The notes beneath the pieces are model-generated. The model saw nothing but the letters and a program-made list of their open reading frames with translations, ran no database searches and was not told the DNA's origin. From positions 40,294,797-40,358,796 of the forward strand of contig JASXTE010000004.1 in the NCBI GenBank assembly GCA_030280995.1: a DNA stretch of 64,000 bases. The letters run 5' to 3'. This document shows positions 21,560 through 64,000 of this stretch, in pieces. The first letter of the stretch is position 1. Every line of letters begins with the position of its first letter. Both the position numbers and the translations under genes were made by a program. This DNA is from Hemileia vastatrix (taxonomy: Eukaryota; Basidiomycota; Pucciniomycetes; Pucciniales; Zaghouaniaceae).

Positions 21560-22550
21560 ACTCCCTGCTAAAAAGTGTCCTTGTGAGGTTTGTCTGACCT
21601 TCAGGGGGGTAATTTGGCCACATCAAACTACTTCTATTTCCATGATTGACCAAAACATCATCCTCATTTCCATCTGAAGAGTTGATCTCATCTGACTGTG
21701 GCTGATCAAAGGGGTCCACCACAAGTTTAGCCAAAATTATGGTGAACACTTTTTTGATGGATAGTGACTAACTGGTGCTTTCCAAAATTGTCCACCTGAA
21801 GTTAGGCTAAACTTCAGGAGGATAAATTTATTATGAATACCAAATTAACTGAAGAATACTTTTGCCCTAGCTACTCTGCATTATAAAAGTGTCCAACTGA
21901 GGTTTAGCCATAATTCAGGTAGACACTTTTGGAAAGGCACAGTCTGATGGGTTTAATATCTATATATGGCAATAAGTATCAGTTTTTTATCAACATGGAA
22001 CTAGAATTAATTTAATATGGCCAAAGTGTCCACCTGAAGTTTGGCCAAAATACAGGTGGAAATTTTTATGAGGATTACTTGATGAAATGAAGAAGACTTG
22101 CAATTACTTTCCATCATAAAATTTTCAAACTTAAGTTTATCAAAAATTGTGGTGACACTTTTTCCAGATCCAGTCATATGGAATCAACTCTCTATATGGC
22201 AATGAGAATCAATTTTTAGTCAATCATGGCATTAGAAGTAATTTGATATGGACAAACTTTCCACCTGATTTTTGGCCAAAAATAAGTAGGAAATGTTTAT
22301 GAGGAATACTAGATTAACTAAAGAAGACTTGCACCCTACTACTGTCCATCATAAAAGTGTCCACCAGAAGAATTCTCAAACTTGTGGTTGACACCTTTGG
22401 CCTGGTCCAGCCATATGGGATCAATTCTGCATATGGAAATGAGGATTTAATTTGGTCAATCATGGTACTAGAAGTAATTTGATATAGACAAAGTGTCCAA
22501 CTAAATATTGGAAAAAAATCAGTTGAAAACTTCATTTAGTTTTTCAAAAA
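21560..22550. repeat. Diverged short satellite monomers (about 234 bp)
   Basis: Copies of the AAGTGTCC...GGACACTTTT half-palindrome, strongly decayed, start at about 21573, 21886, 22120 and 22353. The last two intervals are 234 and 233 bp. Each unit holds two imperfect palindromes about 136 bp apart, the same internal order as in the 607-bp units to the right, but lacks their AT-rich spacer of about 370 bp. Confidence 0.6.
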
Positions 22551-25500: not shown

Positions 25501-28500
25501 CTCAATCATTGCACAATAAGTAGTTTGATATTTCCAAAATTTCCTCCTGATGATTTTTCAAAACCCATCAGGACACTTTCTTTGGTTTAACAAAAAGAAA
25601 ATATAGTCCAAGTTTAGCCCTGGTGGTGCACATTTGATATAACACCTCTACTTGTTATTGATAGTGGGAATTTTCCTTATATTTTTTTTCTTATTTTACC
25701 CTTTAATTTAACTTTTTTATTGCTCATATTGCTTTGGATATCAATTTTCAATTTTTAAAATAAATAATTTTCATACTCTTATACCTTTATTTAATAATAT
25801 ATCATTAAAGGTGGAACACCACCTGGTATGCATTTTTCACACAAGTTATTACTATAGTAATAACGTTAATAATATAATGATGACAAAAAATTAATCAAAT
25901 GGTAAATTTAAATGACACAGAAAGAGCAAATACCAGTGGAAATGTTTATAAGAAATCCCTTTTGAGTTTAAGAAGATTTGCTGTATGCCTACTCTCAATT
26001 ATAAAAGTGTCCAGCACAAGTTTGGCCAGACTTGTGCTGGACACTTTTGGTTGCATGAAGTCATATGAGATAAATTCTCTCTATGGCAATGAAAATGATA
26101 TTTCACTCAATTATTGAAGTAAAGAATGTTTAATATTGTAAAATTGTCCCCTGGAAGTCTGTCCAAACCTCAGGTCAAAATTTGTTAGCTATACATAAAA
26201 GTAAGTTTAGACCAAGTCTTGACCTAGGGGTCCCCAACTGTCCCAACACCACTTCTGGCTCTTGATAGTAAAAATTTTACTTTTATTTTTTATTTTGTAT
26301 TTGATCCCATTTATTTTCATTTTACTTTTCTATTACTCTTTTTAATTTTAAATATCAATTTATTTTTTTAAAAACTAAACATATTCATATTTTTTTAACT
26401 TTATATAATAATATTATTAAAGGTGTAACATCACCAATTTTGCATTTGGCATGCAGGTTTTTGCTATACTAGAAAAATTAATAATATATATGGTGAAAAA
26501 AAATTAATTATAAGATAAATATGAATGATAAAAAAAAGTTAAAAAACCAATATAAATGTGAAAAACAAAAAACTGATGTACTGAGAAACACTTCCACCCT
26601 AGCTACTCTCCATCATAAAAGTGTCCAGCACAAGTTCGGCTGAACTTGTGCTGGACACTTTTGTTCAGGTGCAGTCAGATGGGATCAATTCTCTCTGTGG
26701 AAATTAAATAAAAAAATGCTAAATAATTACATTAGAAGTAGTTTGGTATGGCTGAATTATCCACCTTGAGTTTTTCCAAACCTCAGGTGAAACATTTTGT
26801 ATCTTTAAAAAAAAATTTAATTTTATCAAATTTAGCCCTGATGGCACCCATTTGTTTCAACACCTCTACTGGCTCTTGAAGGCAGGAATTTTCCTTGAAT
26901 TTTTCTATTTCATATTTGATCTCTTTTACTTTACTTTTTTATCACTCATGTTACATTTGGATATTAATTTATAATTTTGGAAAAAAAATCATTTTCATAT
27001 TTTTTTAACATTTTTTAATAATATTATAAAAGGTGTAATATAACATGGCATGCATTTGGTGCACAAGTTTTTTCTATACTAATAAAATTAATAATATTTT
27101 AATGACAAAAAATTAATCAGATAATAAAATATGAATAACACAGAAAGATCAAATACCAGTTGATATGTTTTAAAAAAAACAGTTGCACTGAAGAAGACCT
27201 GCACCCTAGCTACTCTCCATCATAAAAGTGTCCAGCACAAGTTTGGCCGAACTTGTGCTGGAAACTTTTGATCAGGTGCAGTCAGATGGGATCGATTCTC
27301 TCTATGGCAATGAAAAAAATTATTTGATAAGAAAATTCACTAGATTTAGTTTGATATAGCTGAATTATCCACCTAGAGTTCATCCAAACTACAGGTACAA
27401 AATTTTTTATCTTTAAAAAACAGTCAATTTAGTACAATTTATCCCTGATGGCTCTCATTTGCTTCAACATCTCTACTGGCCTTTGATATTAGGAATAATA
27501 CTTGGATTTCTTTTTTCATATCTGATCCCTTTAACTTAATTTTTTATTCCTCATATTGCTTTTGGATATCAATTAATAATTTTGAAAATAAATTATTTTA
27601 ATATTTTTATACATTTATTCAATAATATTATAAAAGGTGTAACATCACTCTGTATGCATTTGGCACACAATTTGTTGCTATAATTATATAATTAGTAATA
27701 TAATTAAGACAAAAAATTAATCAAAAAATATGTATGAGTGAGGCACAAAGATAAAATACCAGTAGACATGTTTGTAAGAAATACCAGATGAACTGAAGAA
27801 AAATTCTAACCCAGCCACTCTCCATCATAGAAGTGTCCAGCAAAAGTTCTGCTGAACTTGTGCTGGACACTTTTGGTCATGTGCAGTCAGATGGGATCAA
27901 TTCTCTGTATGGCAACAAAAATTTTTTTTATCAAATTTAACTAGAAGTAGTTTGGTTTAGCTGAATCATCCACCTGCTGTTCTGCCCAATATCAAGTGTA
28001 TAATTTTTTATCTTTAAAGAAAAGGTCACTTATTACAATTAAGCCCTGATGGCTCCCATTTGCTTTAACACCTCTACTGGCTCTTGATAGTAGGAATTTT
28101 ACTAGTATTTTTTTCATATTTGAACTCTTTGACTTTTATTTTACTCTTTTATTCCTCTTTTTACTTTTAAATTTCTATTTAATTTATGTAAAACTAATCC
28201 TTTCCATATTTATTTAAGTCTATTTTAAAAAATTATTGAAGGTATAACTTCACATGGTATGCATTTGGCACACAAGTTTCTGCTATACTAATAACATTAA
28301 TAATATAATGGTGATAAAATATTAATCGGATGATAAATATGAAAGATACAGACTGATCAAATACCAGTAGACATGTTTATGAGAAATAAAAGATGAAGGA
28401 ACTGAAGAAAATTTCCACCCAAGCTACTCTCCATCATAAAAGTGTCCTGCAAAAGTTTGGCCAAACTTGTGCTGGACACTTTTGGTCACGTGCAGTCAGA

Positions 28501-30165
28501 TGGGATCAATTCTCTCTATGGCAACAAAAAAACATTTTTTTATTAAACTTCACTACAAGTAATTTTGTTTAGCTGAATCATCCACCTGTTGTTCTTCCCA
28601 ACCTCAGGTGTATAATTTTTTATCTTTATAAAAAAAGGTCACTTATTAAAATTTAGCCCTGATGGCTCCCATTTGTTTCAACACTTCTACTGGCTCTTGA
28701 GAGCAAGAATCTTACTAGTATTTTGTTTTTCATAATTGATCTCTTTGAGATTAATTTTACTTTTTTATTTCTCTTTTTTTTAAATATCTATTTAAATTAT
28801 TGTAAAGCTAATCATTTTCATATTTTTTTACTTTTATTTCATAATATTATAAAAGGTGTAACATCACCTGGTATGCATTTGGCACATGAGTTTTTTCTAT
28901 ACTTATAATATTAATAATATAATGGTGACAATAAATTAATCAAATGATATATATGAGTGAGGCACAAAGATCAAGTACCAATGGACATGTTTATAAGAAA
29001 TACCAGATTAACTGAAGAAAAATTCTACCCTAGCTACTCTTCGTCATAAATGTGTCCAGAAAAAGTTCGGCCGAACTTGTGCTGGACACCTTTGGTCACA
29101 TGCAGTCTGGTGTGATTGATTCTCTCTCTATCATTGCACTAGAAGTTGTTTGATATGGCTAAATGGATCCACTGAATTTTTGTTAAACCTCAGATTGGCA
29201 CTTTTTTGTTTTTCAAAAAAGCAATTATAGTCCAAGTTTAGTGCCACTGGTGAGTGTTCACCCCAACATGTCTACTTGCTCTTGATGGCAGTTATTTTAT
29301 TTTATTTTTTTATTTCATATTTGCTTCCTTTAATTTTACCTTTTTATCCCTCATATTGCTTTTGTATATCAATTTATTTTTTGTAAAAAAAATCTTTTTC
29401 ATATTTTTTTACCTTTATTTAATAATATTATAAAAGGTGTAACATCACCCGGTATGCGTTGGGCACACGAGTTTTTGCTATACTTATAATATTAATAACA
29501 TAATGGTGACAAAAAATCAATCAAATGATAAATATGAGTGAGGCACAAAGATCAAATACCAGTGGACATGTTTATAAGAAATACCAGATGAACTGAAGAA
29601 AAATTCCACCCTAGCTATTCTCCATCATAAAAGTGTCCAGCACATGTTTGGCCGAACTTGTGCTGGACACTTTTTGTCACATGCAGTCTGATGTGATCAA
29701 TTCTCTCTATTGCAATGAAAATGAATTTTTCTTCAATAATTGCACTAGAAGTTGTTTTATATGGCAAAATTGTCATGCTGAAGTTTTGGTAAAGCTCAAG
29801 TGGATTTTTTTTTATTTTTACAAAAAAGAAATTATAGTCCAAGTTTAGTGCCACTGGTGGGCGTTCACCCCATCATGTCTACTTGCTCTTGATGGCAGGA
29901 ATTTTACTTTAATTTTTTATTTCATATTTGATCCCTTTAATTTTACCTGTTTATCCCTCATATTGCTTTTGGATATCAATTTATTTTTTGTAAAACAAAT
30001 CATTTTCATATTTTTTTACCTTTATTTAATAATATTATAAAAGGTGTAACACCACCTGGTATGCATTGGGCACACGAGTTTTTGCTATACTTATAATATT
30101 AATAACATAATGGTGACAAAAAATCAATCAAATGATAAATATGAGTGAGGCACAAAGGTCAAATA
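22551..30165. repeat. Satellite array, period about 607 bp, 12 palindrome units
   Basis: Twelve copies of a 38-46-bp palindrome (GTGTCCAGCACAAGTTYGG followed by its complement) start at 22971, 23576, 24181, 24793, 25403, 26007, 26621, 27228, 27833, 28442, 29052 and 29633. The intervals are 581 to 614 bp, mostly 604-612. Between palindromes the order is constant: GTCAGATGGGATCAATTCTC, a second weaker palindrome about 136 bp later, a CCCTGATGG..CCCATTTG block, an AT-rich part, GGTGTAACATCACC, GTATGCATTTGGCACAC, AATATAATGGTGACAAAAA and CTAGCTACTCTCCATCAT. Short ORFs that recur at this period are by-products. The array ends partway through a unit at about 30165. Confidence 0.9.
22967..23012. repeat. 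46-bp perfect palindrome, type copy of the satellite
   Basis: The arms are AAAAGTGTCCAGCACAAGTT, then CGG, and the exact complement, with no unpaired centre. The copies at 23572-23617 and 24177-24222 are also perfect over 46 bp with TTTGG/CCAAA at the centre; the others carry one to four mismatches. Such sequences can extrude as cruciforms. Confidence 0.9.
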
Positions 30166-30474
30166 CCAATTAATCAATAGTTCTTTTTAATATTATAAAT
30201 TTTTTGATTAAATAAAATGGTAATAATGAATTATATTTTTCATCCACAATTCCACTCTAATGATACCCACTGCATAAAAAGGGTTCACTCAGTCTTTTCT
30301 TTACTGCTTGTGCATATATTTTATTGCCCACAGTACTACAATTTTTTGTAGTGATTATCCCACATCTGATTCAGGAATATTTTTGAACAATATAAGTTTT
30401 TTTTACAAAAGACCTTATCATATCCAATATCCCACAAATAATACAACCTGTTTTTGTATTAAAACCCATTAATT
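30166..30474. other. AT-rich spacer between satellite and Harbinger C
   Basis: No ORF, repeat unit or hairpin stands out. The satellite match stops at about 30165 and the ATT triplet before Harbinger C is at 30472-30474. Confidence 0.4.
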
Positions 30475-30782
30475 AGGGGGTGTCAGTTCTGGCAAATCCG
30501 CACTTACAAATCCGCACTTAAATTTGACCAAATCCGCACTTAAATAAGTGCGGATTTCCAAAAAACACTAGCCCCAATACTGGTGGATTTCAAAATGAAA
30601 TAAGTCACTTATTTCACTCAAATCCGCACTTTCTCAACCAAAAGTGCTGATTTCACCATCAAGTCCCATTTCACTGATTTGTCAGCATCATCCCATTCAT
30701 ACGCAGCACTCCGCAGAATAACACTTCATAACTCAAAACATCGTACATCACTTACATCTTCATATCATATCATATAAGAGTC

Positions 30783-32042
30783 ATGCCTTCCTCACTTTTA
30801 AATCGTGATAAATTAAATAAAGCAACGACTTTCATGGCGCTTGAACTGCTCTTGGACTCTGATTCCGATTCTGATCTAGAAGAAGATTTTGTCATTTTAT
30901 CAAAAATGGCCAGGAAACGTTACCTTCTTCCCAGAAAGCCTCAAGTACTTCATACCCCCAAGTACACCATCCAAACACTTCTTAACCTATCTACACCCAG
31001 TTTTAGACAGCTGTTCAGGACTTCTCAGGAATGTTTCCTTAAATTGCTTGAGCTTATTCAGGATCATCCCATATTTCACAATAATTCTCAAAAAGAACAA
31101 CGACATCCTTCAATTCAATTGGCCATCACACTATGTCGTTTGGGTTCAAATGGTAATGGAGCAGCTTTGAAACGTTTAGAAAATGTCTTTGATTTAGGGT
31201 ATGGTTCAGTTAACACTTATACCAAAAGATGTATCACTGCCATCAACTCCTTGGAATCTCAACTTCTCACCTGGCCAACAAAAGAAGAGCGACTTGAATT
31301 ATCTCAGGTTATGCAAGCAGAGGGCTTCACAGGATGTATTGGTTTTGTTGATGGTACTACTATTTGTTTGAGCCAGAAACCTACTCAAGGTGGAAACAAT
31401 TACTTTGACTGTAAAAAGAAGTAGATTATTTTTAACTCCTTTCATTCTCTTTGAAGGTAACACAAACAAATATATCTTCTTTATAGATATTCAATTTATA
31501 TTCAGCTTATATGTGACGTAATAAAAAAATTTATATCATTCTTCGCTGGCTATCCTGGCTCATTTCATGACTCCTATGTCTTCCAAAGAATGCAAAATTC
31601 AAATGAACCTGAAAAATTCTTTGATGAAGCTCAGTATCTTCTTTCAGATTCTGCTTATGTGAATGGAAAGTATGTACTTCCTGCTTTTCAGGGAGCAGCT
31701 TCAGAAGACAGTCAAAATGCCAAATTCAACAATCATTTGGCAAAGTCAAGAGTCCGTATTGAACATTCTATTGGAATCTTGAAAGGCCGTTTTTCTAGTT
31801 TAAGGGAATTAAGAAGTCCTCTTAGAAATAAATCTGAAATGGAGGCGGTGATCAACCGGATTCTGTGTTGCACTATACTTCATAACCTACTTGCTGACCT
31901 CAAAGATCAATGGTTAGAGCTGTATGAAGATGAACAAGTTGATTCACCTCCGACTATATCCAACACTTCTATTTCTCAATCAACTAGTATAAGGGCGAAA
32001 ATCCTTCCAATAACACTCCAACATTTCTCAACGCAATTTTAA
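30783..32042 (+). CDS. PIF/Harbinger DDE transposase, 397 aa, two exons
   Basis: Exons are 30783-31420 and 31487-32042, with a 66-bp intron that starts GTAGAT and ends TATAG; splicing keeps the frame and gives 397 residues. The ATG at 30783 is the first in frame and matches the start in element A. An acidic stretch (residues about 26-35) is followed by a helix-turn-helix-like region (DLGYGSVNTYTKRCITAI, about 138-155). The DDE catalytic fold follows: Asp190 in GFVDGTTI, Asp241 in GSFHDSYVF and Glu305 in RVRIEHSIGILKGRF. All three are present. The enzyme would cut and paste elements with AGGGGGTGTCAG ends, including A and B. No frame damage was seen, so activity is plausible but unproven. Confidence 0.88.
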
Positions 32043-32280: not shown

Positions 32281-32496
32281 TTAAATGAAGAAAAGGGTCT
32301 GGGAGAGGTTGAGAGGGGTGAAATGGGGATCAAAAGAGGATGGCATACAATGGGGCTGTGAGGATAGCGAAAGGCATGGGGAGGGAAGACAAGCATGTGT
32401 TGATAGAATTGAAAGGGATGGAGATTGGTGCAAACAGAGTGTGAAAATAGGAGGATGAACTCTGTTCTTCGGGCGAAGAACAGAGTTCACTTCCAT
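32281..32496 (-). other. Pro/Ser/Leu-rich minus-strand ORF shared with 37472-37876
   Basis: This 71-codon frame begins MEVNSVL and is followed by PPIFTLCLHQSP. A near-identical but longer frame (134 codons) starts the same way at 37876 in the 1.9-kb TIR element. The DNA between the two loci is similar over about 345 bp. The composition follows the pyrimidine-rich strand bias, so coding is doubtful; it may be part of a former ORF2 exon. Confidence 0.25.
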
Positions 32497-34093
32497 AAAA
32501 TATTAGCTGAAACATAGTTTTCAATTCTGTAAAAACAGTTGTAAGTAATAGAAAAAGTCACTGATTTTTTTTATATGTAATCCTTGCTTTACGAGGAGAC
32601 TTTTGTGACGAAGCAGATTTTTGAGTTACCCTTTGAGATTTGGAATGTCTGGGAGGCATTATGAAACTGGCACATAACAAGAAAAAAGATTAAAAAGTAG
32701 AAGAAATAAGTAAAAAAGAATGTAAACATGCCTGGTCAAAATATTGAAAATGTTGGAGATTGGTGCAAACAGAATGTGAAAATAGGAGGATGAACTCTGT
32801 TCTTCAGGCGAAGAACAGAGTTCACTTCCATAAAATATTAGCTGAAACATAGTTTTCAATTCTGTAAAAACAGTTGTAAGTAATAGAAAAAGTCACTGAT
32901 TTTTTTTCTATGTAATCCTTGCTTTACGAGGAGACTTTTGTGACGAAGCAGATTTTTGAGTTACCCTTTGAGATTTGGAATGTCTGGGAGGCATTATGAA
33001 ACTGGCACATAACAAGAAAAAAGATTAAAAAGTAGAAGAAATAAGTAAAAAAGAATGTAAACATGCCTGGTCAAAATATTGAAAATGTTGGAGATTGGTG
33101 CAAACAGAATGTGAAAATAGGATGATGAACTCTGTTCTTCGGGCGAAGAACAGAGTTCACTTACATAAAATATTAGCTGAAACATAGTTTTCAATTCTGT
33201 AAAAACAGTTGTAAGTAATAGAAAAAGTCACTGATTTTTTTTATATGTAATCCTTGCTTTACGAGGAGACTTTTGTGACGAAGCAGATTTTTGAGTTACC
33301 CTTTGAGATTTGGAATGTCTGGGAGGCATTATGAAACTGGCACATAACAAGAAAAAAGATTAAAAAGTAGAAGAAATAAGTAAAAAAGAATGTAAACATG
33401 CCTGGTCAAAATATTGAAAATGTTGGAGATTGGTGCAAACAGAATGTGAAAATAGGAGGATGAACTCTGTTCTTCGGGCGAAGAACAGAGTTCACTTCCA
33501 TAAAATATTAGCTGAAACATAGTTTTCAATTCTGTAAAAACAGTTGTAAGTAATAGAAAAAGTCACTGATTTTTTTTCTATGTAATCCTTGCTTTACGAG
33601 GAGACTTTTGTGACGAAGCAGATTTTTGAGTTACCTTTTGAGATTTGGAATGTCTGGGAGGCATTATGAAACTGGCACATAACAAGAAAAAAGATTAAAA
33701 AGTAGAAGAAATAAGTAAAAAAGAATGTAAACATGCCTGGTCAAAATATTGAAAATGTTGGAGATTGGTGCAAACAGAATGTGAAAATAGGAGGATGAAC
33801 TCTGTTCTTCGGGCGAAGAACAGAGTTCACTTCCATAAAATATTAGCTGAAACATAGTTTTCAATTCTGTAAAAACAGTTGTAAGTAATAGAAAAAGTCA
33901 CTGATTTTTTTTCTATGTAATCCTTGCTTTACAAGGAGACTTTTGTGACGAAGCAGATTTTTGAGTTACCTTTTGAGATTTGGAATGTCTGGGAGGCATT
34001 ATGAAACTGGCACATAACAAGAAAAAAGATTGAAAAGTAGAAGAAATAAGTAAAAAAGAATGTAAACATGCCTGGTCAAAATATTGAAAATGT
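32419..34093. repeat. 335-bp tandem array, five copies, in Harbinger C
   Basis: Five full units start at 32419, 32754, 33089, 33424 and 33759, nearly identical to one another. Each contains a near-perfect hairpin with 15-bp arms (GAACTCTGTTCTTCG, centre GG; first at 32457-32488). On the minus strand each holds an ATG followed by a 33-codon frame MPPRHSKSQRVTQKSASSQK... (first copy 32659-32558). In units 2, 4 and 5 an ATA-to-CTA change on the plus strand creates a TAG in that frame. The same exon-like DNA exists once, decayed, in element A (about 6925-7010), just upstream of the SANT/Myb-like exon. The array therefore multiplied the 5' end of ORF2. Confidence 0.9.
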
Positions 34094-52038: not shown

Positions 52039-53538
52039 TGTCAGCCTGTATATCTCCAGGACTGAGTAAAAAGTAACTATAAGTTATGTTAAACACATGA
52101 ACTATACATGGGAATAATAAATGAGAGTACACAAATAGTATACATAAGTAAAATTATGATAATACACAAAAAATGCCATTATAACACCTTATATACACAC
52201 ATATATCCACCTTTTATAGGTCTTATGTACTTAATATTAAGTTGGAGTATGTTAGGGTAATCTTAAGAACCTTAAGTATAAGGCTACATAATTTTTAAGT
52301 ACACTTAAAGCTGTTATATTCATTGTTTTATGCAAAAAACAAGAAATGCGCTTTATTTCACTTAAACGTTGACTATATGCGCTATAAAATTGAGAATATC
52401 AAAATTGCGCTTTGACAGATCAATTGGGCTCATTTAGAACTATTGATTTGGCTATTTAAATTCATAAAAATAACACTTTTCAAATTTGGTGTTTTTTATG
52501 CCAGAAATGGCTTCTGTGTACTGGCCACATACTGCCTGCTTTTTTCCCGTGTGAATAGCTTCATTTTTAGCAAAGTTAGCTTTTTCACACTATAATTACC
52601 CCACATTCTACGCCCACTGTGGGGAAACACACTAAAATAGGCGACAGGCGCTTATTTAGTGTCCTAGCTTAATTAATAATGCATTGACCCTGTTTATATG
52701 CACTAATTTCATTAATAACCTCACTCTTGGCACTTTATTTCATCACCACGCTTAAATTCGCCTAATTTTAGTCAAGGATTTACCCGTGCAAGCGCCTGCC
52801 AAGAACTGCATGTAGTTACCCCACATCTCACGCTCTTTTTTAAGTTTTTGGGTGGTTTCTCAGTCAATTTTGGTTATTTTTGAATGGGAATTTCACGTAG
52901 TATAATGTCAGGATTAGCCCCATTATTTCTACCGTCAATCCCCCTTATTATTAAGCTATTATTAACCTTAAAAAGTCTCCTTTAGTCCTTAATATTATTG
53001 TTTTATACGCATATACTCTCTTTTTGTCTTTTTCTTTAATTTTGATGGATTTCCCTTATTATTTCAGGATTTTGGCGGTTATTACTCTTCTAATTATGTC
53101 ATGGGTCACTGGGAATGTTGATGGGAATGTCTATTAGTTGTTTAGAGGCGTTATTAACTGTGTATTGGGTGGTACATCAAGGGAATCATTGGGGAACTCA
53201 GTGTGTATAAAAGGAGGAGGTTTTTGGGTTGTATTTCTTCATTCTTTATCATTACAATTAACCAATATAACCAAAACAATTACAATACATATCAATTAGT
53301 ACTTTTATAAGACTTTTGAATAGTATCTGAATTTATATAATCTATTTTTCTACCAACTATAAAGATTGTAAGCCATATATAAGAATAGTGAGAATTTTAT
53401 TACTGAGACCTTTATATTTGATTATATTTTACAACTTAGTGGATTAGAACTACAGTATTCATATAGGACCATTAAAATCTTCTAGACAACTGACTATTCA
53501 AGCTAGTTCACGTCCTTGTACTTGACCTTAGCCTGACA
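52039..53538 (+). repeat. 5' LTR of the young gypsy element
   Basis: Begins TGTCAGCCTG and ends TTAGCCTGACA, with TGTCAG/CTGACA as a 6-bp inverted end. It holds the promoter (TATAAAA at 53206). Base composition is less extreme than its surroundings and several CG dinucleotides are retained. In two of the eight differences from the 3' LTR the 5' copy has CG where the 3' copy has CA (52408 region and 52549 region), as expected from decay of methylated cytosine. Confidence 0.95.
53206..53212 (+). promoter_or_regulatory. TATA box of the young gypsy 5' LTR
   Basis: TATAAAA followed by GGAGGAGG sits 327 bp before the LTR end, so transcription would start near 53235-53245. The same box is at 61429-61435 in the 3' LTR. 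Confidence 0.6.
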
Positions 53539-53540
53539 AT

Positions 53541-53556
53541 TGGGGACCTTTCCTCA
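53541..53556 (+). other. Primer-binding-like site
   Basis: TGGGGACC starts 2 bp after the 5' LTR. A TGG start just inside the LTR is the usual site where the CCA end of a tRNA pairs. I could not assign the tRNA. Confidence 0.5.
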
Positions 53557-53721
53557 AGAATTCTGTTATAATCCTGTAAGTGAAATTTTCAAAAGAAGGT
53601 GCACGTAAATAATATCCCTATAGAAATATTTGGATAATTACAACAGGTTGGGGTCACTTATATAGTGATTTCAGAAAAAGAAGCCCTGTTATATTATAAA
53701 ATTGTGATATTGAATCAACAA

Positions 53722-53882
53722 TTTTACCACTAATTTAACTTATAATTGTTATTAGTGGGTCTGTCAATAGACCAATTAAATTTGAGATCTTTGCAGATAA
53801 AATTTTTACCACTAATTTAACATATAATTGTTCTTAGTGGGAGTCTGTCAATAGACCAATTAAATTTGTGATCTTTGCAGAT
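53722..53882 (+). repeat. 80-bp direct duplication in the leader
   Basis: Two near-identical copies contain TTTACCACTAATTTAAC, TCTGTCAATAGACCAATTAA and GATCTTTGCAGATA. Each copy can pair CCACTAAT with ATTAGTGG across about 20 bases. It lies between the primer site and the gag start; a role in RNA dimerisation or packaging would be a guess. Confidence 0.75.
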
Positions 53883-54206
53883 AATAAACCAATTAAACTG
53901 ATTAATTGTTTTCTTTTAACAGGACTCTTAATCTTTTCTTTTATTGGTTTGTAAAATTCATTAAATATTGAGAAAGAATCATACTGACAGTTGTTTTCTT
54001 TTGAATATAAAAATACGGCTACATATTGTAGACCAGTTAAATCAAGTGACCACATAAAAGCATATTTGACTTTTGGCACTTAAATATTCACTTCATACCA
54101 ATAAGTAAGCAATAAAATTGTCTTCAGTGGTATTGATAAATACTGATAAAACTCCTTTTTGAAGTTTTCATATCTAAACTTTCAATTCTTTAAATTCCAC
54201 GTAAAA

Positions 54207-57200
54207 ATGTGTGACAACAATGACATTGTAAGTAATAAGGTAAAACCTTATAACTTAAGACCTAGAGCTGAAAGACCTGTTACAGGACATTCAAATGGAG
54301 GGCCAGGACTCTCCCATAATCAACAACACTCCTTCAATGTCTCTGGAGGAAAGGGAAAAGCTTTTAAAGCAGGTTTCAATAAAGAAAACAAAAAATACTT
54401 TACAAGAACAAGTTCACTCCCTATCCACCCTACTGAACACCTTGACAATAAGAGTCAACAATATAGTGGACCAGATCAACAATCTGGAAAAGAGAGCAGC
54501 TCAAGGTTTCATAGAAGTCAACCAAGCTCTAGTGGACATAAAGACTCAACCACCAACAGTGGCACCCAACAATTCCATAGCAACACCTCCAGCCCAAGAG
54601 GAGGACCAAAAAATTACTGTAAGCAAATGGAAATGGGATTGGTACGCCCAAAACTACAACAATCCTCAACAGCAGGGCTCCAGCAGTCACCCTTACAGGG
54701 GAAAGGCAAGGAGAGGCAGGGGAAGTGGGATAAGACCTTGGTAAGTCATCCAACTTCTTATGATCAATTATATCAACCTGAAAATAAATTACTTATAGGT
54801 AATGAGATTGATAAGGAAATATTGGATATTATTGATAAGGATTTAAAGGATTATTCATTTGAACAGAATATGTTAAACTTGTCTTTACATGAGGACAATG
54901 TAAATAGTTTTATTGATCACCAGAAAAATACTATTAATATAAAAATGGAATCAAATGAATTAAATCTTGACCCTGATAATGAGTCTTCTGAATTGGACAC
55001 GGAAAAAATAGAATATTTTTTAAAAGAGAATCCAATGGAATCAAAAATAATAAGTAAATTATTATTGAGAATTGAAAAATTGGAAGAGTTCTCAAAAGAG
55101 TCAAACATTAATACAGAAAATGTATTATTACAACTAACACAATCATTGAGTACCACAGCCAATAAATTAAAAATTATTGAAAATTCAAATAATGAATTAA
55201 TCAATGAGAATAAAAGATTAAAATCTGAGATTAGAAATTTAGAAAGTAAATTAGAACACTCTCAGAATATTATGGCTACCATAGAGGGACGTGTAAAATT
55301 GTCTTTTTCAAATGTAAATGATACTTTAACTCATGTACCTGTAATAAAAGATAGGTTACAAAGAGTAGAAATTGAAGTAGCTAACATTTTGAAAAATACT
55401 GAAACAATAAAGGATAATACCTCTTATGTAGAAAGAGTACCAGTTTTTATGAAACACTCTGATGATAAACCAATGATGGAACATGAACATAGTGTCATGG
55501 GCTCTGAGAATATAAAATCAGTAAAAGATGAAATAAATGATCATCTTTCTAAAGTAAGTGAATTACTCAATATTCCTCAGGTTAGGGAAGCAAAAACTAG
55601 CCAAAAGAACTGGCCTAAGTTAGATCAGTACCCTTCTTTTGACGGGGATTCAAAATCTGATTGGCAACAATTCATACAAAGAATTGATAACTTAAAATTT
55701 TCATACAAATTACCTGATGAAGAAATTACTTCAAAGTTAATATCTTTATTTACAGATGTGGCCTTATTATGGTTTGAATCTGTATTGAGTGAGGGAATTA
55801 ATTACTCCTGGAATGAATGGAAGGCACTAATTGAAAGGCAATTTGGTGGCCCAAAATTTAGAATCACTCAACAAAGACTGTATGAAAAGGCCAGATATAA
55901 TCCAAATGCTGGAGATAAACCCATGGTCTTCTTAATGAATTTAATAAAAATCATGAAAGCTATGGATCAAAAAATGGATTATGAAGAGTGGAAAGAAAAA
56001 ATAATATACAAATTGCCTATATCAGTTAGAGACATTATTGTTGCTAGAACTGAAACTGTCAGAGACACCTCTGGATTCATTAATATATGCAATGAGATAT
56101 TATTAAACCACAAATATGAAACCAAGTATAGTAATTACAGACAAAGTGTTGAAGTGGTAAAACCTACTACAAGTAAGTTACCAGTGGAAAAGAAAAAACC
56201 TTCAGCTCCCCTTGTCCCTAAGAGACAAGAAAATAACACTTGTTACAAATGTAATGAACCTTGGGTTAAAGGTCACACGTGTAAGAAAAGAATAAATGTT
56301 ATTGAAACCTCACAGAATTCTGAACCTAGTAATCATGAAGATGAGAATGTGGAATCCAGTGAGGATTGCAAGAGTAACATATCTTACAGTGATGATGAAA
56401 ATGAGATATTTGTATTAGAACAGGATATAATGTTCCTGAATGATGCTATACCTCATACAGACACATCTTTGACTTCCATAGAGGAAGCTGAAATAATTAA
56501 AGATGTATCTCATGATACTTACAAAATAACACCTATCAGAGCACCTATTATCATATGTGGAAAAGAAATGAATGCCATTCTTGACACTGGGGCTGCAGGT
56601 AGTGTAGTTTCACTTAATGCATTAATGAAACTTGATAGTAAGTACCAGGAAAAACTAGAACCTGTTCAGACAAAGAACTGGAGGGGTTTTGGTTCAGTAT
56701 TAAATCCAATTGGCAAATACAAAACTGCTGTATTCTTTAAATATAATAATGGATATGTTAGAGCAGTTTGTGAATTTGTAGTAATGGATAATAATAATTG
56801 TAGTGATTGGTTTATTATTGGCAATGATTTATTGACAAAATTTGGCATTAAACTAGATCCTGCAAACAGTTGTTTCACCATAGGGGTGAATGGTAAAAGA
56901 AAATTCAAAATATGTTCTGAAAATTCAGTATATACCATTTCTCCTAGAGAAGAACAACTGCAAGGTGGAAGAACCACCAATGAAGTGGGTGAATTGGAAA
57001 ATGAAATCCAAAAGGCCTCTTTCAGTCCTCAACTCTCAAAAATTGAACAAGAAGATATTTTGAGATTGATTAAATCATATCCTATGGCATTTGCTCATGG
57101 CTCAAATGAACTAGGATTGGTCAAAGACCATGAGATGAAAATCTCTTTAAGCTGTGATTTGGATAATATTCCTGGAAGTTTAAAAAAGAAACCTTACCCA

Positions 57201-60080
57201 GCATCTCCTGCAAAAAGGAAAGATATTGAAGACAATATAAAATTCTTGTTGGAAATGGGTATTGTTGAAAAAGTGGACACAACACCTAAGTATTGTGTCA
57301 TTTCACCAGTATTAATCTCTTATGAAAAAGATAAGGCAAGATTATGCGGTGATTATAGAGCTCTGAATACATATACAGTAGATGATATTTACCCTCTACC
57401 AAGGATAGCTTCTATCCATGCTACCTTACAAGGAGCAAAATATATTTCCTGTCTGGATGGGAACAAGGGTTACCACCAGATTCCTGTGGAAAGAAATTCT
57501 CAAAATTACTTATTAATAACCACACATATGGGTATATATAAGTATGTGAGAATGCCATTTGGCCCAAAGAATGCCCCTTCAGTCTTCCAAAAATTGATGG
57601 ATAGTGTTTTTCATCAGGAAATGGTTGAAGGATGGCTATTGGTCTATATTGATGACATCATAGTGTTTTCAAAAACATATGATGAACATTTAAATCACCT
57701 GAAAAGAGTCTTTCAAAAAATGGATGAAATTAATATGACTATTGCATTAAAGAAATGTAAGTTTGGATTTCAATCCTTGAAAGTACTTGGACATGTTGTA
57801 TCTGGATTACAAATTTGTGTTGACCAGAATAAAGTGGCAGCAATTAAAAACATTGGGATACCTAAAGATGTAAAAGAGGTTCAAAGTTTTTTGGGTATGT
57901 GTGGATATTATAGACAATATATTAAAAATTACCAATCCATTGCAGCCCCTTTAACAACATTAATCAGGAAGAATGAAGCTTTCATTTGGAATAATGAAAG
58001 ACAACACGCCTTTAATAAATTAAAGGAATGTTTAATGTCAGCTCCAATATTGGGACTGCCAGATTTCACCCTACCTTTTATCTTGTACACTGATGCAAGT
58101 TTCATAGGTTTGGGTGCTGCTTTACAGCAAAAACAGATAATAAATGGAAAATTATCTGAAGTAGTTATCTGTTATATATCCAGAACCTTAAGAAAGACAG
58201 AATTAAGGTATGGTGCCACACAGCTAGAATGTTTAGCCGTGGTGTGGGCTTTGGAGAAACTTCATTACTATCTGGAAGACCAGAAGTTTGAACTTATAAC
58301 AGATTGCAGTGCAGTAAAATCATTACTAAACATGAAAACACCTAATAGGCACATGTTTAGATGGCAACTAGCTGTACAAGAGTACAGAGGAAGAATGAAA
58401 ATCACTCATAGAGCAGGAACATTGCATTCAAATGTGGATTTATTATCCAGAAGTCCTTTGCCAAATGATGCTGACAACCCAGCTTATGTACCTGAAAATG
58501 AGGTTATACATATATTTGGGATTTATATAGTGGATTTAGAAGAAGAGTTTATGCAAACTATATTGGAAAATTATTCATCTGATAAAGATTTGTCTAAACT
58601 ATCTACCATTCTTAATGATCCAACAAATGCCTCCATGAGTGCATTAATTAAAACCTTGCCTCCAAAGTATAAAAATGCGTTGGAAAAAGGTAAACTATCA
58701 ATTGAAGATGGATATATATATTACAGGAAAAAGTTAAGCAATGTAATAGTAATACCACCTTCTATGAAAGAGTTAATGTTGAGTACTTGTCATGATGACA
58801 TCTTAGCTGGTCATTTTGACTTTAACAAAACATTAACCAGAGTTAAAAATACAGCCTGGTGGATAAACATGAAAGAGGATGTACAAAAATACATTGAAAC
58901 ATGTGACTCTTGTCAGAAATCTAAAAGATTAACTGGGAAGAGAGCTGGATTGTTACAACAAATAGAGCAGCCAAAAGCTCCATGGGAAATTATAAACATG
59001 GATTTTGTAACTGGCTTGCCATTAGCAGGAAAAGAAAGTTTCAATTCTTGCTGGGTAATAGTGGATAGATTAACAAAAATGTGTAAGTTTATCCCTACCC
59101 ATAAAGAGGTATCTGCTAAAGACTTGGCGTTACTATGGTGGACTCAGATGATGAATACTGCTGGGTTCCCCAAAGCCATAATCTCTGACAGAGATCCTAA
59201 ATTTACTTCAGAGTTCTGGACATCTTTGATGGAAGTATCAGGTTGTCAATTAAAATTGTCTACAGCACACCATCCACAAACTGATGGGCTGGCTGAGAGG
59301 ATGATACAAACTCTAGAAGACATGATCAGAAGATATTGTGCCTTTGGATTAGAATACAAAGACAATGAGAAATTCACACATGACTGGGTAACATTAATTC
59401 CTGGCCTTGAATTTGCTTATAACAGCACAACTCATTCTGTAACAGAGAAGAAACCATTTGAACTCTGGCTGGGATATGTACCAAATACCCCAGTAAATCT
59501 TTTAAATAAACTACCAAGGTTGGATATACACCCTGGCACTAAATCCTTTATTCATATGCAACAAATGTGTAGAAAGCATGCAGAAGAATGCATCCAAAAA
59601 GCATTTGAATATGAAAAGAAAAGGTGGGACAAATCTCATAAAGAATTTGAATTTAAAAAGGGAGATGAAGTCCTCATATCAACACTACATTTTAACTTAC
59701 AAGGTAATGTTAAATTAAAGGATCCCTTTGTAGGACCTTTTGTAGTAAATAAAATGGTTGGGAATAATGCAGTGGAAGTCATATTATATGCTCCATATGA
59801 TAGGAAACATCCAGTTTTCCCTATCTCATTATTGAAACCTTACCATGCAAATGATCCTGACTTATTTCCAAAAAGAAGGGGAAGGCCTAAAAAGCAACCT
59901 GAAGAAATTGTGGAAAAAGCAGAGATTGAAAAAATACTCAAGAAAAGAATCCTTACTAAAGAAAAAGGAACTGAGTATTTACTAAGATTTAAAGGGAAAT
60001 CAAATGAATTTGATAAATGGATACCTGAAAAAGAAATTTCTAATTTATCCACCCTTCTTAAAAAATTTAAACAGAAATAA
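54207..60080 (+). CDS. Gag-pol-chromodomain polyprotein of the young gypsy, 1957 aa
   Basis: The ATG at 54207 (MCDNND) is the first in the frame. Domains in order: a low-complexity N-terminus with KPYNLRPR; a coiled-coil-rich stretch (about 295-390); a retrotransposon gag region (about 465-640) ending in the knuckle CYKCNEPWVKGHTC (about 688-701); retropepsin with DTGAAG (Asp793); RT with YIDDIIVFS (Asp1149, Asp1150). RNase H follows with YTDAS (Asp1296). Integrase has an HHCC finger and a catalytic core with Asp1599, Asp1661 and Glu1697 (D-x61-D-x35-E). A GPY/F-like module and a C-terminal chromodomain (about 1895-1957, with YLLRFKGK and WIPEKEI) close the frame. All catalytic residues are present and the frame is unbroken. 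Residues about 30-180 overlap a second frame that looks coding. Confidence 0.95.
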   Translation: MCDNNDIVSNKVKPYNLRPRAERPVTGHSNGGPGLSHNQQHSFNVSGGKGKAFKAGFNKENKKYFTRTSSLPIHPTEHLDNKSQQYSGPDQQSGKESSSRFHRSQPSSSGHKDSTTNSGTQQFHSNTSSPRGGPKNYCKQMEMGLVRPKLQQSSTAGLQQSPLQGKGKERQGKWDKTLVSHPTSYDQLYQPENKLLIGNEIDKEILDIIDKDLKDYSFEQNMLNLSLHEDNVNSFIDHQKNTINIKMESNELNLDPDNESSELDTEKIEYFLKENPMESKIISKLLLRIEKLEEFSKESNINTENVLLQLTQSLSTTANKLKIIENSNNELINENKRLKSEIRNLESKLEHSQNIMATIEGRVKLSFSNVNDTLTHVPVIKDRLQRVEIEVANILKNTETIKDNTSYVERVPVFMKHSDDKPMMEHEHSVMGSENIKSVKDEINDHLSKVSELLNIPQVREAKTSQKNWPKLDQYPSFDGDSKSDWQQFIQRIDNLKFSYKLPDEEITSKLISLFTDVALLWFESVLSEGINYSWNEWKALIERQFGGPKFRITQQRLYEKARYNPNAGDKPMVFLMNLIKIMKAMDQKMDYEEWKEKIIYKLPISVRDIIVARTETVRDTSGFINICNEILLNHKYETKYSNYRQSVEVVKPTTSKLPVEKKKPSAPLVPKRQENNTCYKCNEPWVKGHTCKKRINVIETSQNSEPSNHEDENVESSEDCKSNISYSDDENEIFVLEQDIMFLNDAIPHTDTSLTSIEEAEIIKDVSHDTYKITPIRAPIIICGKEMNAILDTGAAGSVVSLNALMKLDSKYQEKLEPVQTKNWRGFGSVLNPIGKYKTAVFFKYNNGYVRAVCEFVVMDNNNCSDWFIIGNDLLTKFGIKLDPANSCFTIGVNGKRKFKICSENSVYTISPREEQLQGGRTTNEVGELENEIQKASFSPQLSKIEQEDILRLIKSYPMAFAHGSNELGLVKDHEMKISLSCDLDNIPGSLKKKPYPASPAKRKDIEDNIKFLLEMGIVEKVDTTPKYCVISPVLISYEKDKARLCGDYRALNTYTVDDIYPLPRIASIHATLQGAKYISCLDGNKGYHQIPVERNSQNYLLITTHMGIYKYVRMPFGPKNAPSVFQKLMDSVFHQEMVEGWLLVYIDDIIVFSKTYDEHLNHLKRVFQKMDEINMTIALKKCKFGFQSLKVLGHVVSGLQICVDQNKVAAIKNIGIPKDVKEVQSFLGMCGYYRQYIKNYQSIAAPLTTLIRKNEAFIWNNERQHAFNKLKECLMSAPILGLPDFTLPFILYTDASFIGLGAALQQKQIINGKLSEVVICYISRTLRKTELRYGATQLECLAVVWALEKLHYYLEDQKFELITDCSAVKSLLNMKTPNRHMFRWQLAVQEYRGRMKITHRAGTLHSNVDLLSRSPLPNDADNPAYVPENEVIHIFGIYIVDLEEEFMQTILENYSSDKDLSKLSTILNDPTNASMSALIKTLPPKYKNALEKGKLSIEDGYIYYRKKLSNVIVIPPSMKELMLSTCHDDILAGHFDFNKTLTRVKNTAWWINMKEDVQKYIETCDSCQKSKRLTGKRAGLLQQIEQPKAPWEIINMDFVTGLPLAGKESFNSCWVIVDRLTKMCKFIPTHKEVSAKDLALLWWTQMMNTAGFPKAIISDRDPKFTSEFWTSLMEVSGCQLKLSTAHHPQTDGLAERMIQTLEDMIRRYCAFGLEYKDNEKFTHDWVTLIPGLEFAYNSTTHSVTEKKPFELWLGYVPNTPVNLLNKLPRLDIHPGTKSFIHMQQMCRKHAEECIQKAFEYEKKRWDKSHKEFEFKKGDEVLISTLHFNLQGNVKLKDPFVGPFVVNKMVGNNAVEVILYAPYDRKHPVFPISLLKPYHANDPDLFPKRRGRPKKQPEEIVEKAEIEKILKKRILTKEKGTEYLLRFKGKSNEFDKWIPEKEISNLSTLLKKFKQK
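54295..54744 (+). CDS. Overlapping 149-aa ORF within the gag start, possible accessory protein
   Basis: This lies in the +1 frame relative to the polyprotein, starts with a true ATG and ends with TAA. The product has a helical, heptad-like part (SLEEREKLLKQV, then QEQVHSLSTLLNTLTIRVNN, IVDQINNLEKRAAQGFIEV), a Pro-rich linker and a basic Gly-Arg tail (RGKARRGRGSGIRP), as in nucleic-acid-binding proteins. In the polyprotein frame the same 450 bases give a Ser/Gln/Gly/His-rich low-complexity run unlike the rest of the protein. The stretch is also richer in G and C than its surroundings, as two-frame constraint could cause. How it would be translated (leaky scanning from 54207, or frameshifting) is unknown. 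No family was recognised. Confidence 0.55.
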   Translation: MEGQDSPIINNTPSMSLEEREKLLKQVSIKKTKNTLQEQVHSLSTLLNTLTIRVNNIVDQINNLEKRAAQGFIEVNQALVDIKTQPPTVAPNNSIATPPAQEEDQKITVSKWKWDWYAQNYNNPQQQGSSSHPYRGKARRGRGSGIRPW

Positions 60081-60261
60081 ATTTCTGTTCAACCAGCTGA
60101 GGGGTTAAAAAACCAGTACTCATAATATTTTATTATGTTTTATTTCTTTAAAGTTGAATCTTTAATGCTACAGATTTATTCTGAATACCTGAAAATTACA
60201 AATTAATAAAATAAAATGTATAACTTATCATTTTTTTTATTGTTTTTTTTGGGTGGGCGAG
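60081..60261 (+). other. 3' untranslated part and polypurine tract
   Basis: After the TAA at 60078-60080 lie about 170 bp of AT-rich DNA and a T run, then GGGTGGGCGAG (60251-60261) immediately before the 3' LTR. A purine tract abutting the LTR is where plus-strand priming occurs in this class. Confidence 0.65.
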
Positions 60262-61761
60262 TGTCAGCCTGTATATCTCCAGGACTGAGTAAAAAGTAAC
60301 TATAAGTTATGTTAAACACATGAACTATACATGGGAATAATAAATGAGAGTACACAAATAGTATACATAAGTAAAATTATGATAATACACAAAAAATGCC
60401 ATTATAACACCTTATATACACGCATATATCCACCTTTTATAGGTCTTATGTACTTAATATTAAGTTGGAGTATGTTAGGGTAATCTTAAGAACCTTAAGT
60501 ATAAGGCTACATAATTTTTAAGTACACTTAAAGCTGTTATATTCATTGTTTTATGCAAAAAACAAGAAATGCGCTTTATTTCACTTAAAAGTTGACTATA
60601 TGCGCTATAAAATTGAGAATATCAAAATTGCACTTTGACAGATCAATTGGGCTCATTTAGAACTATTGATTTGGCTATTTAAATGCATAAAAATAACACT
60701 TTTCAAATTTGGTGTTTTTTATGCCAGAAATGGCTTCTGTGTACTGGCCACATACTGCCTGCTTTTTTCCCATGTGAATAGCTTCATTTTTAGCAAAGTT
60801 AGCTTTTTCACACTATAATTACCCCACATTCTACGCCCACTGTGGGGAAACACACTAAAATAGGCGACAGGCGCTTATTTAGTGTCCTAGCTTAATTAAT
60901 AATGCATTGACCCTGTTTATATGCACTAATTTCATTAATAACCTCACTCTTGGCACTTTATTTCATCACCACGCTTAAATTCGCCTAATTTTAGTCAAGG
61001 ATTTACCCGTGCAAGCGCCTGCCAAGAACTGCATGTAGTTACCCCACATCTCACGCTCTTTTTTAAGTTTTTGGGTGGTTTCTCAGTCAATTTTGGTTAT
61101 TTTTGAATGGGAATTTCATGTAGTATAATGTCAGGATTAGCCCCATTATTTCTACCTTCAATCCCCCTTATTATTAAGCTATTATTAACCTTAAAAAGTC
61201 TCCTTTAGTCCTTAATATTATTGTTTTATACGCATATACTCTCTTTTTGTCTTTTTCTTTAATTTTGATGGATTTCCCTTATTATTTCAGGATTTTGGCG
61301 GTTATTACTCTTCTAATTATGTCATGGGTCACTGGGAATGTTGATGGGAATGTCTATTAGTTGTTTAGAGGCGTTATTAACTGTGTATTGGGTGGTACAT
61401 CAAGGGAATCATTGGGGAACTCAGTGTGTATAAAAGGAGGAGGTTTTTGGGTTGTATTTCTTCATTCTTTATCATTACAATTAACCAATATAACCAAACC
61501 AATTACAATACATATCAATTAGTACTTTTATAAGACTTTTGAATAGTATCTGAATTTATATAATCTATTTTTCTACCAACTATAAAGATTGTAAGCCATA
61601 TATAAGAATAGTGAGAATTTTATTACTGAGACCTTTATATTTGATTATATTTTACAACTTAGTGGATTAGAACTACAGTATTCATATAGGACCATTAAAA
61701 TCTTCTAGACAACTGACTATTCAAGCTAGTTCACGTCCTTGTACTTGACCTTAGCCTGACA
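60262..61761 (+). repeat. 3' LTR of the young gypsy element
   Basis: It is 1500 bp, begins TGTCAG and ends CTGACA. It matches the 5' LTR base for base at an offset of 8223 with about eight differences, and is followed by the target copy GTTTA. Confidence 0.95.
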
Positions 61762-62423: not shown

Positions 62424-64000
62424 CTAAGATTTCTTCTTTTTAAACTTTTTTAACAGAGTAAGAAGATTAGAAATTTCCCTTCCAGGTATCCATGCATCAT
62501 GTCCAGATGATTTGTTTTTATATCTCAATAAATATTCAATACCTCTTTCAGAAGTGATAATTCTATCATTGAGAATTTTAACAATTTTTGCAGTTTCTGT
62601 GACTTATTGAGGGTTTTCTTAGGTCTTCCCTTTCTTTTGGGAAATAATTCACTGTTGGAAGTTTAAGGTTTAAGCAAGGAAATGGGGAAAACAGGATGCT
62701 TTCTATCATATAGAGAATACAATACAACTTCTACTGCATCATCTCCAACCATTCTTTCTACAACAAATGATCCCACAAAAGGATCTTTTAATTTTTTGTT
62801 CCCCTGTAGACTAAAATGGAGAGTAGATTTTAACACTTCATCACCCTTGTTAAATGTGTATTTTTTATGGGATTTATTTCATCTTTTCTTTTCATATTCA
62901 TATGCCTTATCAATACATCTTTGAGCATGTTTTCTGCCTAGCTGTTGCATTTGCATAAAAGACTTTACAACAAAATGTAGTTCCAACATTGGTAATTTTT
63001 TATTCAGAATTTGAGCAGGAGTTTTTGGGAAATAACCTAACCAAAGTTCAAAAGGTTTTTTTCAGTGAAAGAATGAACAGTGATATTATAAGCAAATTCA
63101 AGACCTGACAATAGAGTAACCCAGTCATGAGTTGATCTGTCATTGTATTTATATTCTAATCCAAAGGCACAATACCTTCTAATCATATCTTCCAGAGTTT
63201 GAATCATTATTTCAGATAGACCATCAATCTGAGGATGGTGAGCTGTAGATAATTTCAACTCATAGCCACAAATATCCATCAAAGACATCCAAAATTTAGA
63301 TGTAATTTTTGGGTCTCTGTCAGAGATAATGTCTTTTGGAAATCCAACAATATTAAATATATATGACCATCATAAGAAAGCTAATTTATTTGTGGATACA
63401 TCTTTGTGGGTGGGAATAAATTTGCACATTTTGGTGAATCTATCCACTATTACCCAACAAGAGTTATAACTGTCTTTACCTGCTACAGGAAGACCAGTGA
63501 AAAAATACATGTTAATGATTTGCCAAGGAGAATCAGGTTCTTCAATATTTTGCAACAATCTTGCTTATTTACCTGTCAATCATTTATATTTTTGACAAGA
63601 ATCACAAGATTAAACATATAATTCAGTGTCCTCAGACATATTAGCTCACCAAGCAGTGTTTTTAATTCTGATTATGGTTTTCTCAAGATCAAAATGTCCT
63701 GCTAATATGTCATCACGACAAAGTTTTGAGATGGTTTCTTTCATTGAAGGAGGAATAACAATGAAATTTGTAAGTTTTCTCCTGTAATAAATATAACCAT
63801 CTTCAATGGAAAATCTTTCCCTTACTCAAAGCATTTTGGTACTTTGGAGGAAGAGTTTTTTTCAATGCTTGTATAGAAGAATTCTTCGAATCATTCAAGA
63901 TTGTAACAAATTAATTTAAGCCAGAATCTTTATCATATGAATCCAGAATTAATTGAAATAGTTCTTCCTCCATATCAACAATATATATACTATGAATATG
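62424..64000 (-). pseudogene. Decayed relative of the young gypsy: integrase to chromodomain
   Basis: From the window edge leftward the minus strand matches polyprotein residues about 1430 to the end: LPPKYQNAL-type linker text, the HHCC finger, the core (LPVAGKDSYNSCWVIVDRFT, then SDRDPK, then GLSEIMIQTLEDMIRRYCAF), the GPY/F-like module and a chromodomain ending LLKKFKKKKS before TAG at 62426-62424. Stops and frameshifts occur in several blocks. The first catalytic Asp of the core is Tyr (INMYF versus INMDF in the young copy). The element is cut by the right window edge; its 3' LTR is the split one at 51390-52038/61762-62391. Confidence 0.85.

Follow-up and report, generated by a model that had tools for sequence, protein, structure and literature searches.

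Complex retroviruses make accessory proteins through splicing and overlapping reading frames, and of the retrotransposons compared here BARE is a Ty1/copia-type element. In BARE1, spliced and unspliced RNA form separate pools, and splicing is described as favouring a Gag-only RNA (PMC3735527). Cer1, a Ty3/gypsy element of C. elegans, has an accessory protein, CERV, described as a 517-aa product of five exons with globular domains; it is made from spliced RNA, with the first exons in the gag frame and exon 4 in a frame of its own, and it carries a potential leucine zipper and a basic motif resembling a nuclear signal (PMC10309623). In the same account, unspliced Cer1 RNA yields Gag and Pol, and CERV is needed for the export of that unspliced RNA (PMC10309623).

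Small proteins beside gag-pol are also described outside this group. Badnaviruses and tungroviruses encode, 5′ of gag-pol, a small P2 protein with a coiled-coil-like domain that binds nucleic acids, and in RTBV the C-terminal part of P2 is Pro-rich and basic (PMC10885806, PMC5902531). Additional ORFs are reported in plant LTR retrotransposons, where they lie upstream, downstream or antisense of gag-pol (PMC7264820), and in fungal chromoviruses, where a figure legend alone names them (PMC2864245).

The locus described here lies in a 64,000-nt stretch of the Hemileia vastatrix genome (contig JASXTE010000004.1, positions 40,294,797 to 40,358,796); we call this whole stretch the window, and coordinates below are positions within it. 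On its forward strand, at 52039-61761, stands a Ty3/gypsy element whose 5′ LTR (52039..53538, with TGTCAG...CTGACA ends) and 3′ LTR (60262..61761) share 99.4% identity, and which is flanked by a 5-bp target duplication, GTTTA (flanks read by eye). In the unspliced reading, a Gag-Pol polyprotein of 1957 aa begins at the ATG at 54207 on the same strand, and its frame stays open to 60080 (54207..60080). Along it follow RVP (residues 781-883), RVT_1 (1044-1197), RNase H (1286-1393), integrase parts (1516-1690) and a chromodomain (1906-1957); the RT, RNase H, Integrase_H2C2 and Chromo matches are above the Pfam cut-offs, with RVP (19.4 vs 20.7 bits) and rve (29.9 vs 32.6 bits) just under theirs. 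The best solved relative of the polyprotein is the Ty3 Gag-Pol 7q5b (E 4e-124), and residues 1-720 had no homologue outside the source genome at the thresholds used (protein database, 4628 candidates). Domain order, paired LTRs and target duplication together identify a Ty3/gypsy chromodomain element, that is, a chromovirus.

Several further repeats were observed in and around this element. Its 5′ leader holds an 81-bp direct repeat of 94% identity at 53722-53884. Elsewhere in the window there is a satellite-like tandem array at 22539-30232, which repeats every 605-614 bp or so and whose units are about 60-90% identical (families D1-D5), and a 335-bp unit at 32408-34047 in five head-to-tail copies of 97-98% identity, of which a sixth copy, at 37788, has diverged; ORFs at 30732-32042 and 11536-12018 form two inverted copies, and we take them to resemble a Harbinger/PIF-type DDE transposase. 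Two copies of the window's element family, L004 and L005 (G000:C338:55416527-55428491), lie exactly 8223 bp apart; they probably represent a tandem element with a common LTR, because this spacing equals the LTR-to-LTR distance.

Near the start of the polyprotein, at 54295..54744 on the forward strand, lies a second ORF, here called X, which has its own ATG at 54295 and a product of 149 aa in the +1 frame relative to the polyprotein. A first-pass annotation had pointed out this 149-codon ORF within the unbroken 1957-aa frame, along with a low-complexity polyprotein reading over the same interval; both are present as described, and the polyprotein is Ser/Gly/Gln-rich there. In 150-nt windows, G+C is 0.37-0.49 over the overlap and about 0.25 on either side. 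One reading is that chance alone keeps the +1 frame open where the sequence is of low complexity and richer in G+C, and 8.6% of polyprotein-codon permutations do leave X open (0 stops observed, 1.65 expected, p 0.086). Across the window and three copies of a sibling family, the permutation test gives p 0.085-0.19; when codons are drawn from the codon usage of the element, 2.7 stops are expected against none observed (p 0.02). Openness by itself is weak evidence that X is coding, and the case rests instead on its relatives.

The overlap is near-identical at at least 40 places in the 747.6-Mb genome (40 scored of 3410 candidates), and from these we took a window-family set of 30 of the 40 places, the window itself included. 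Part of a sibling element of a second family, B (locus L031), lies in the window on the reverse strand at 62434..64000 and runs on past the window edge; it has a 178-aa ORF in the same place and the same relative frame as X. The genome was searched with this ORF, the best 150 of 16012 candidates being scored (all E < 1e-70), and with the L031 capsid region, the best 150 of 22264 candidates being scored; the latter search brought to light a third family, C, which is young and has frames that stay open for up to 2072 aa. From the capsid search 60 of the 150 places were fetched and 53 used (36 C, 17 B), with L080, L105, L108, L111, L117, L120 and L121 left out as incomplete or unmatched in the overlap. 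A second B set holds 30 copies, 28 of them found by the X search, and two of its copies are also in the 17-copy capsid-found set. The first-pass annotation had proposed comparing the 149-aa product with related elements—homologous X proteins in the same +1 relation are present in both sibling families, B and C, of the source genome.

Not every copy is intact. Over the overlap, both frames are stop-free in all 30 window-family copies, of which 10 have a stop further downstream in the polyprotein (ungapped reading). The X frame is stop-free there in 23 of the 36 C copies and 5 of the 17 B copies, and the polyprotein frame in 30/36 and 5/17, respectively; summed over copies, C has 19 stops in X vs 8 in the polyprotein, and B has 22 vs 18. 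Two X stop sites, in the X codons at offsets 177 and 315, are each common to three B copies, so the spread of some B lineages may have been independent of X or helped in trans.

Comparison between families shows which of the two frames is held by selection on amino acids. Window X and family C X are alike (z 9.4, 0/500 shuffles as high, blastp E 6e-9), and the polyprotein frame over the same interval gives z -0.4 and E 0.017. Between B and C, identity in the overlap is 0.57-0.66 in X and 0.43-0.50 in the polyprotein frame. Set against the C copy L064, every one of the 17 B copies has its greatest divergence at the third positions of X codons (p < 0.005 in each case), with mean differences of 0.243/0.211/0.434 at X positions 1/2/3.

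Variation within families follows the same codons. For these tests, shared variants (those in at least three copies) were compared with singletons over the 36 C and 17 B copies, and two-copy variants were set aside. At X positions 1/2/3, shared variants number 2/5/12 in C and 21/22/41 in B, vs 85/83/85 and 67/64/64 singletons—an excess at X third positions in each family (Fisher p 0.013 in C, 0.015 in B). The two-copy variants, at 15/12/11 (C) and 15/12/15 (B), have no third-position excess and are singleton-like. Stops in X arise from 2/103 shared variants vs 44/448 singletons (p 0.004). Outside X the preference passes to the polyprotein: upstream, its third position holds 24/42 shared variants vs 71/213 singletons (p 0.005), and upstream and downstream together 48/88 vs 124/374 (p 0.0003). 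Taken part by part, this flank preference is clear in B (p 0.010 and 0.019), and C by itself falls short of significance (p 0.15 and 0.69). The window family behaves likewise: the three variants found in the overlap in at least three of the 30 copies all leave the X residue unchanged and alter that of the polyprotein, and downstream the polyprotein third position holds 26/31 shared variants vs 56/127 singletons (counted over 26 copies, four of the 30 being left out for gaps). Within the overlap the polyprotein may leave a trace of its own; among X-nonsynonymous variants, 24/51 shared vs 82/284 singletons are polyprotein-synonymous (p 0.014), but comparison with C gave no significant stretch of similarity in that frame.

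X is the frame with clear amino-acid constraint in the overlap, and the polyprotein reading over it is little more than stop-free passage. As the sign against coding, the first-pass annotation had named neutral substitution or stop codons in the +1 frame of sibling copies; the copies have single-copy stops in either frame, mostly private, and their shared variation follows X codons. The similarity of X over three families, the third-position pattern and the depletion of stops in shared variants in our view refute an ORF left open by chance, to which we attach next to no probability. A constraint on the RNA instead of the protein, such as a packaging or structure signal, would suit a stretch so close to where the genomic RNA begins; however, the variation tracks X codon positions and avoids X stops, unlike a structure signal, and we consider this explanation very improbable. 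No Rfam family reached threshold in 53100-55500.

The strength of X raises the question of whether the polyprotein is read here at all. It may be that X is the sole real product of the interval, Gag-Pol beginning downstream of it and the open polyprotein frame being accidental; the barely conserved polyprotein amino acids over X (z -0.4 between window and C; B-C identity of 0.43-0.50 vs 0.57-0.66 for X) are what such a reading would predict. The distribution of stops speaks against it. With X held fixed, the polyprotein frame of the window has 0 stops vs 6.4 expected (p 0.0002), and the third frame has 13 vs 14.5 expected; over the window and three C copies, 0 polyprotein stops stand against 6.4-7.2 expected, and the third frame is not depleted. 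Shared variants create polyprotein stops in 0/103 cases vs 26/448 among singletons (p 0.004), and the 18 polyprotein stops in the 17 B copies are spread over 15 sites, each found in two copies at most. Simulations run at the observed B-C divergence (0.297) agree: X constraint alone leaves 8.7-9.8 polyprotein stops, with 0/450 runs stop-free; with the polyprotein alone constrained, the pattern over positions comes out wrong (0.195/0.497/0.200) and X acquires 5.6 stops; and X constraint combined with avoidance of polyprotein stops yields 0.211/0.212/0.469, near the observed values. The polyprotein-frame constraint upstream of X likewise argues against a Gag-Pol start downstream, and we judge this reading unlikely. 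The overlap is dual coding, with amino-acid constraint on X and stop avoidance in the polyprotein frame, because X constraint alone would leave about nine polyprotein stops.

Single-sequence modelling gives X a simple architecture. A long helix, presumed to be a coiled coil, spans residues 17-84 (54343..54546, forward strand), with mean pLDDT per ten residues of 77 (11-20), 93-98 (21-80) and 70 (81-90); a short helix at residues 111-121 (54625..54657, forward strand) covers a WKWD motif that is invariant in six aligned X sequences. Beyond the two helices the model is of low confidence (overall mean pLDDT 72.8), and the last 40 residues carry a net charge of +7 in the window and +6 in L064. The first-pass annotation had read coiled-coil heptads and a basic tail from the sequence. 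In the model, X is chiefly a long helix and a tail that is disordered and basic, a design that could allow oligomers to form and RNA to be contacted; nucleic-acid binding is a prediction from the basic tail only.

Searches with X returned weak coiled-coil matches in Pfam, the PDB and viral folds. The best of them, bZIP_1 (E 1.2e-4, one X sequence), in our reading reflects no more than the leucine-zipper pattern and was rejected. No viral fold matched at E 0.001 (best E 3.6), and no homologue was found outside the source genome at the thresholds used, either with X itself (phage records; protein database, 17 candidates) or with the X alignment as query (1723 candidates). The Badnavirus P2 and caulimovirid virion-associated family is absent from the Pfam matches of window X, and from 25 of the 27 Pfam families matching six X sequences.

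How X would be expressed is a separate matter. The 1079 nt before the polyprotein ATG (53128..54206, forward strand) contain no ATG vs 19.4 expected, a result reached in 0/2000 simulated sequences, and family B leaders average 0.71 ATG per 450 nt vs 7.0 expected (28 of 30 copies); the C sequences used reach about 130 nt into the leader. Ribosomes would therefore probably scan to the first AUG, at 54207. From that AUG, a predicted intron offers a direct path into X: exon 1 (54207..54227, forward strand), encoding MCDNNDI and putatively common to the polyprotein and spliced X, would be followed by a 58-nt, phase 0 intron 1 (54228..54285, GTAAGT...TTACAG) and then by exon 2 (54286..54740), the X coding segment DIQMEGQ...RPW, so that removal of the predicted intron fuses the polyprotein leader in frame to X (MCDNNDI-DIQMEGQ... 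in the window).

The sites for this intron, and the in-frame fusion that its removal gives, are present in all three families. Its length is 58 nt in the window, 64 nt in L064 and 55-65 nt in the eight B copies inspected; three B copies (L079, L089, L107) were observed to have it shorter by 9 nt (55 nt), with phase and CAG acceptor kept. Among the 36 C copies the donor is GTAAGT in 27, GTGAGT in five and another sequence in four, and the acceptor is CTGCAG in 28, ATTCAG in five, CTTCAG in one and another in two. In the 17 B copies the donor is GTAGGT throughout, which is not the strongest consensus, and the acceptor is CTTCAG in 14, ATTCAG in one and CTTCAA in two, these last two ending in CAA; the second B set (30 copies, mostly X-found) has GTAGGT in 22 and CTTCAG in 26. 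A branch-like site reads CTAAC in L064, CTGAC in seven of the eight B copies inspected and CTGAA in the window. GTAAGT occurs seven times in the polyprotein ORF, and the whole ORF holds five GTRAGT-YAG pairs of 50-70 nt, of which only intron 1 opens a long other frame, of 152 codons. By eye, introns of the host uL3 gene are about as long as those predicted here; this gene, which lies in the window, has fungal ribosomal proteins as its best PDB matches.

A second predicted intron, also of 58 nt, lies at 54741..54798 on the forward strand (GTAAGT...TTATAG). It has the same length in the window, in C and in seven of the eight B copies inspected; its donor and acceptor are each kept in 36/36 C copies, and in B the donor is GTAAGT or GTGAGT in 15/17 and the acceptor CAG in 16/17. 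Its removal re-creates Trp-stop, leaving the end of X unchanged with or without it. Three other routes were considered and rejected: removal of intron 2 as a way to an X-Gag fusion, given the re-created Trp-stop and the shift of the polyprotein to a stop after 15 codons; exon 1 spliced directly to exon 3, which by reading is in the wrong frame for Gag; and frameshifting from X to the polyprotein at the end of X, where inspection of the window and of L064 by eye revealed no slippery heptamer.

The chief competitor to splicing is that X is real but unspliced, translated from its own ATG at 54295 by leaky scanning, or by reinitiation after MTL*, a three-codon X-frame ORF that separates the two ATGs (54220..54231, forward strand) and lies partly within predicted intron 1. 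The leader is ATG-free, and in the window this is the one short ORF between the two ATGs; RTBV offers a precedent, in which leaky scanning is described together with stretches free of AUG (PMC5902531). Of the C copies 34/36 retain the X ATG, as do 30/30 of the window family. In B it varies: 10 ATG, six ATT and one ATA in the 17 capsid-found copies, and 15 ATG, 13 ATT and two other in the second set of 30, with ATT scattered on the B tree through at least four changes. Among capsid-found B copies, those free of X stops all have ATG (5/5), that is, 0/6 ATT copies are stop-free vs 5/10 ATG copies. That 6/6 capsid-found ATT copies carry X stops weakens the case for splicing and strengthens that for the ATG start.

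Other observations count against initiation at this ATG. In the second, mostly X-found B set, five of the 13 ATT copies are free of X stops, and in three of four ATT copies inspected the X frame offers no alternative ATG downstream of the stop that precedes it. As an argument against own-ATG initiation, ATT at this position is suggestive only. In B and C, ribosomes would have several other ATGs to pass first. The acceptor stands 9 nt before the X ATG, and the X-frame codons between them, D[IV][EQ], are similar among the window, L064 and the majority of B copies; all three families share the intron sites and their phase. Leaky scanning as the sole route loses ground because of the intron, and we regard an unspliced X as a possibility of rather low probability. 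The first-pass annotation's overprinted accessory protein is upheld as a conserved +1 protein at the gag start; its start at an ATG of its own is open to doubt, given a conserved mini-intron whose removal would link the leader to X, and given that some B copies have ATT in place of this ATG. The +1 coding probably begins at the splice acceptor, at 54286, and not at 54295.

The explanation that we favour, and consider likely, is a chromodomain element with an overlapping accessory gene, X, in which both products use the same AUG and splicing decides which is made. Both would start at 54207, the first AUG after the long ATG-free leader. Unspliced genomic RNA would give Gag-Pol by read-through, with 54286-54740 serving as a Ser/Gly/Gln-rich spacer of which only freedom from stops is required. 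Where the host spliceosome takes out the 58-nt intron at 54228-54285, the frame would shift and the leader peptide would be joined to X, giving a product of 159 aa in which a long, presumably coiled-coil helix is followed by a short one bearing WKWD and then by a basic tail. Splicing and the common start are both predicted from the arrangement of sites and frames. X may then act, like CERV, as an oligomeric, basic, RNA-associated factor that aids the unspliced genomic RNA in nuclear export or packaging; this role is a guess by analogy. A bolder and more doubtful proposal is that the chromodomain lineage works like a complex retrovirus, a Rev- or CERV-like X favouring unspliced RNA so that retention vs splicing acts as a self-regulating switch.

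Set beside the described systems, X is nearest to CERV by gene structure as that protein is described, and to badnavirus P2 in protein design; kinship is implied in neither case. With CERV it would share a leader exon in the gag frame and an exon in its own frame, as predicted from sites in three families; in contrast, X is only about 159-205 aa, consists of helix and disorder, and has one frame-shifting mini-intron whose splicing is a prediction. The likeness to P2 lies in the long modelled helix and basic C-terminal part; however, the small ORFs of badnaviruses and tungroviruses are described as preceding the polyprotein ORF and as using leaky scanning instead of splicing, and X has no family match to P2. 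BARE1 differs in that splicing, as reported, yields no new frame, unlike that predicted for X. The additional ORFs of plant and fungal elements resemble X as extra ORFs of LTR retrotransposons with no function assigned; none is described in those accounts as nested in gag with a common start (PMC7264820, PMC2864245). Among the open-licence matches listed, by their titles and abstract openings, none concerned a fungal Ty3/gypsy element with an accessory gene that is overlapping or spliced, which falls short of proof of novelty.

For annotation the locus carries a warning: a gene caller would give the polyprotein only, and the X exon would be taken for a low-complexity spacer. Among Ty3/gypsy elements, Cer1 is the case that we found, in the literature as matched, with a spliced accessory protein. 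If the same holds in fungal chromodomain elements, the strategy would be one that arises repeatedly, here in a compact design with a single frame-switching intron of about 55-65 nt.
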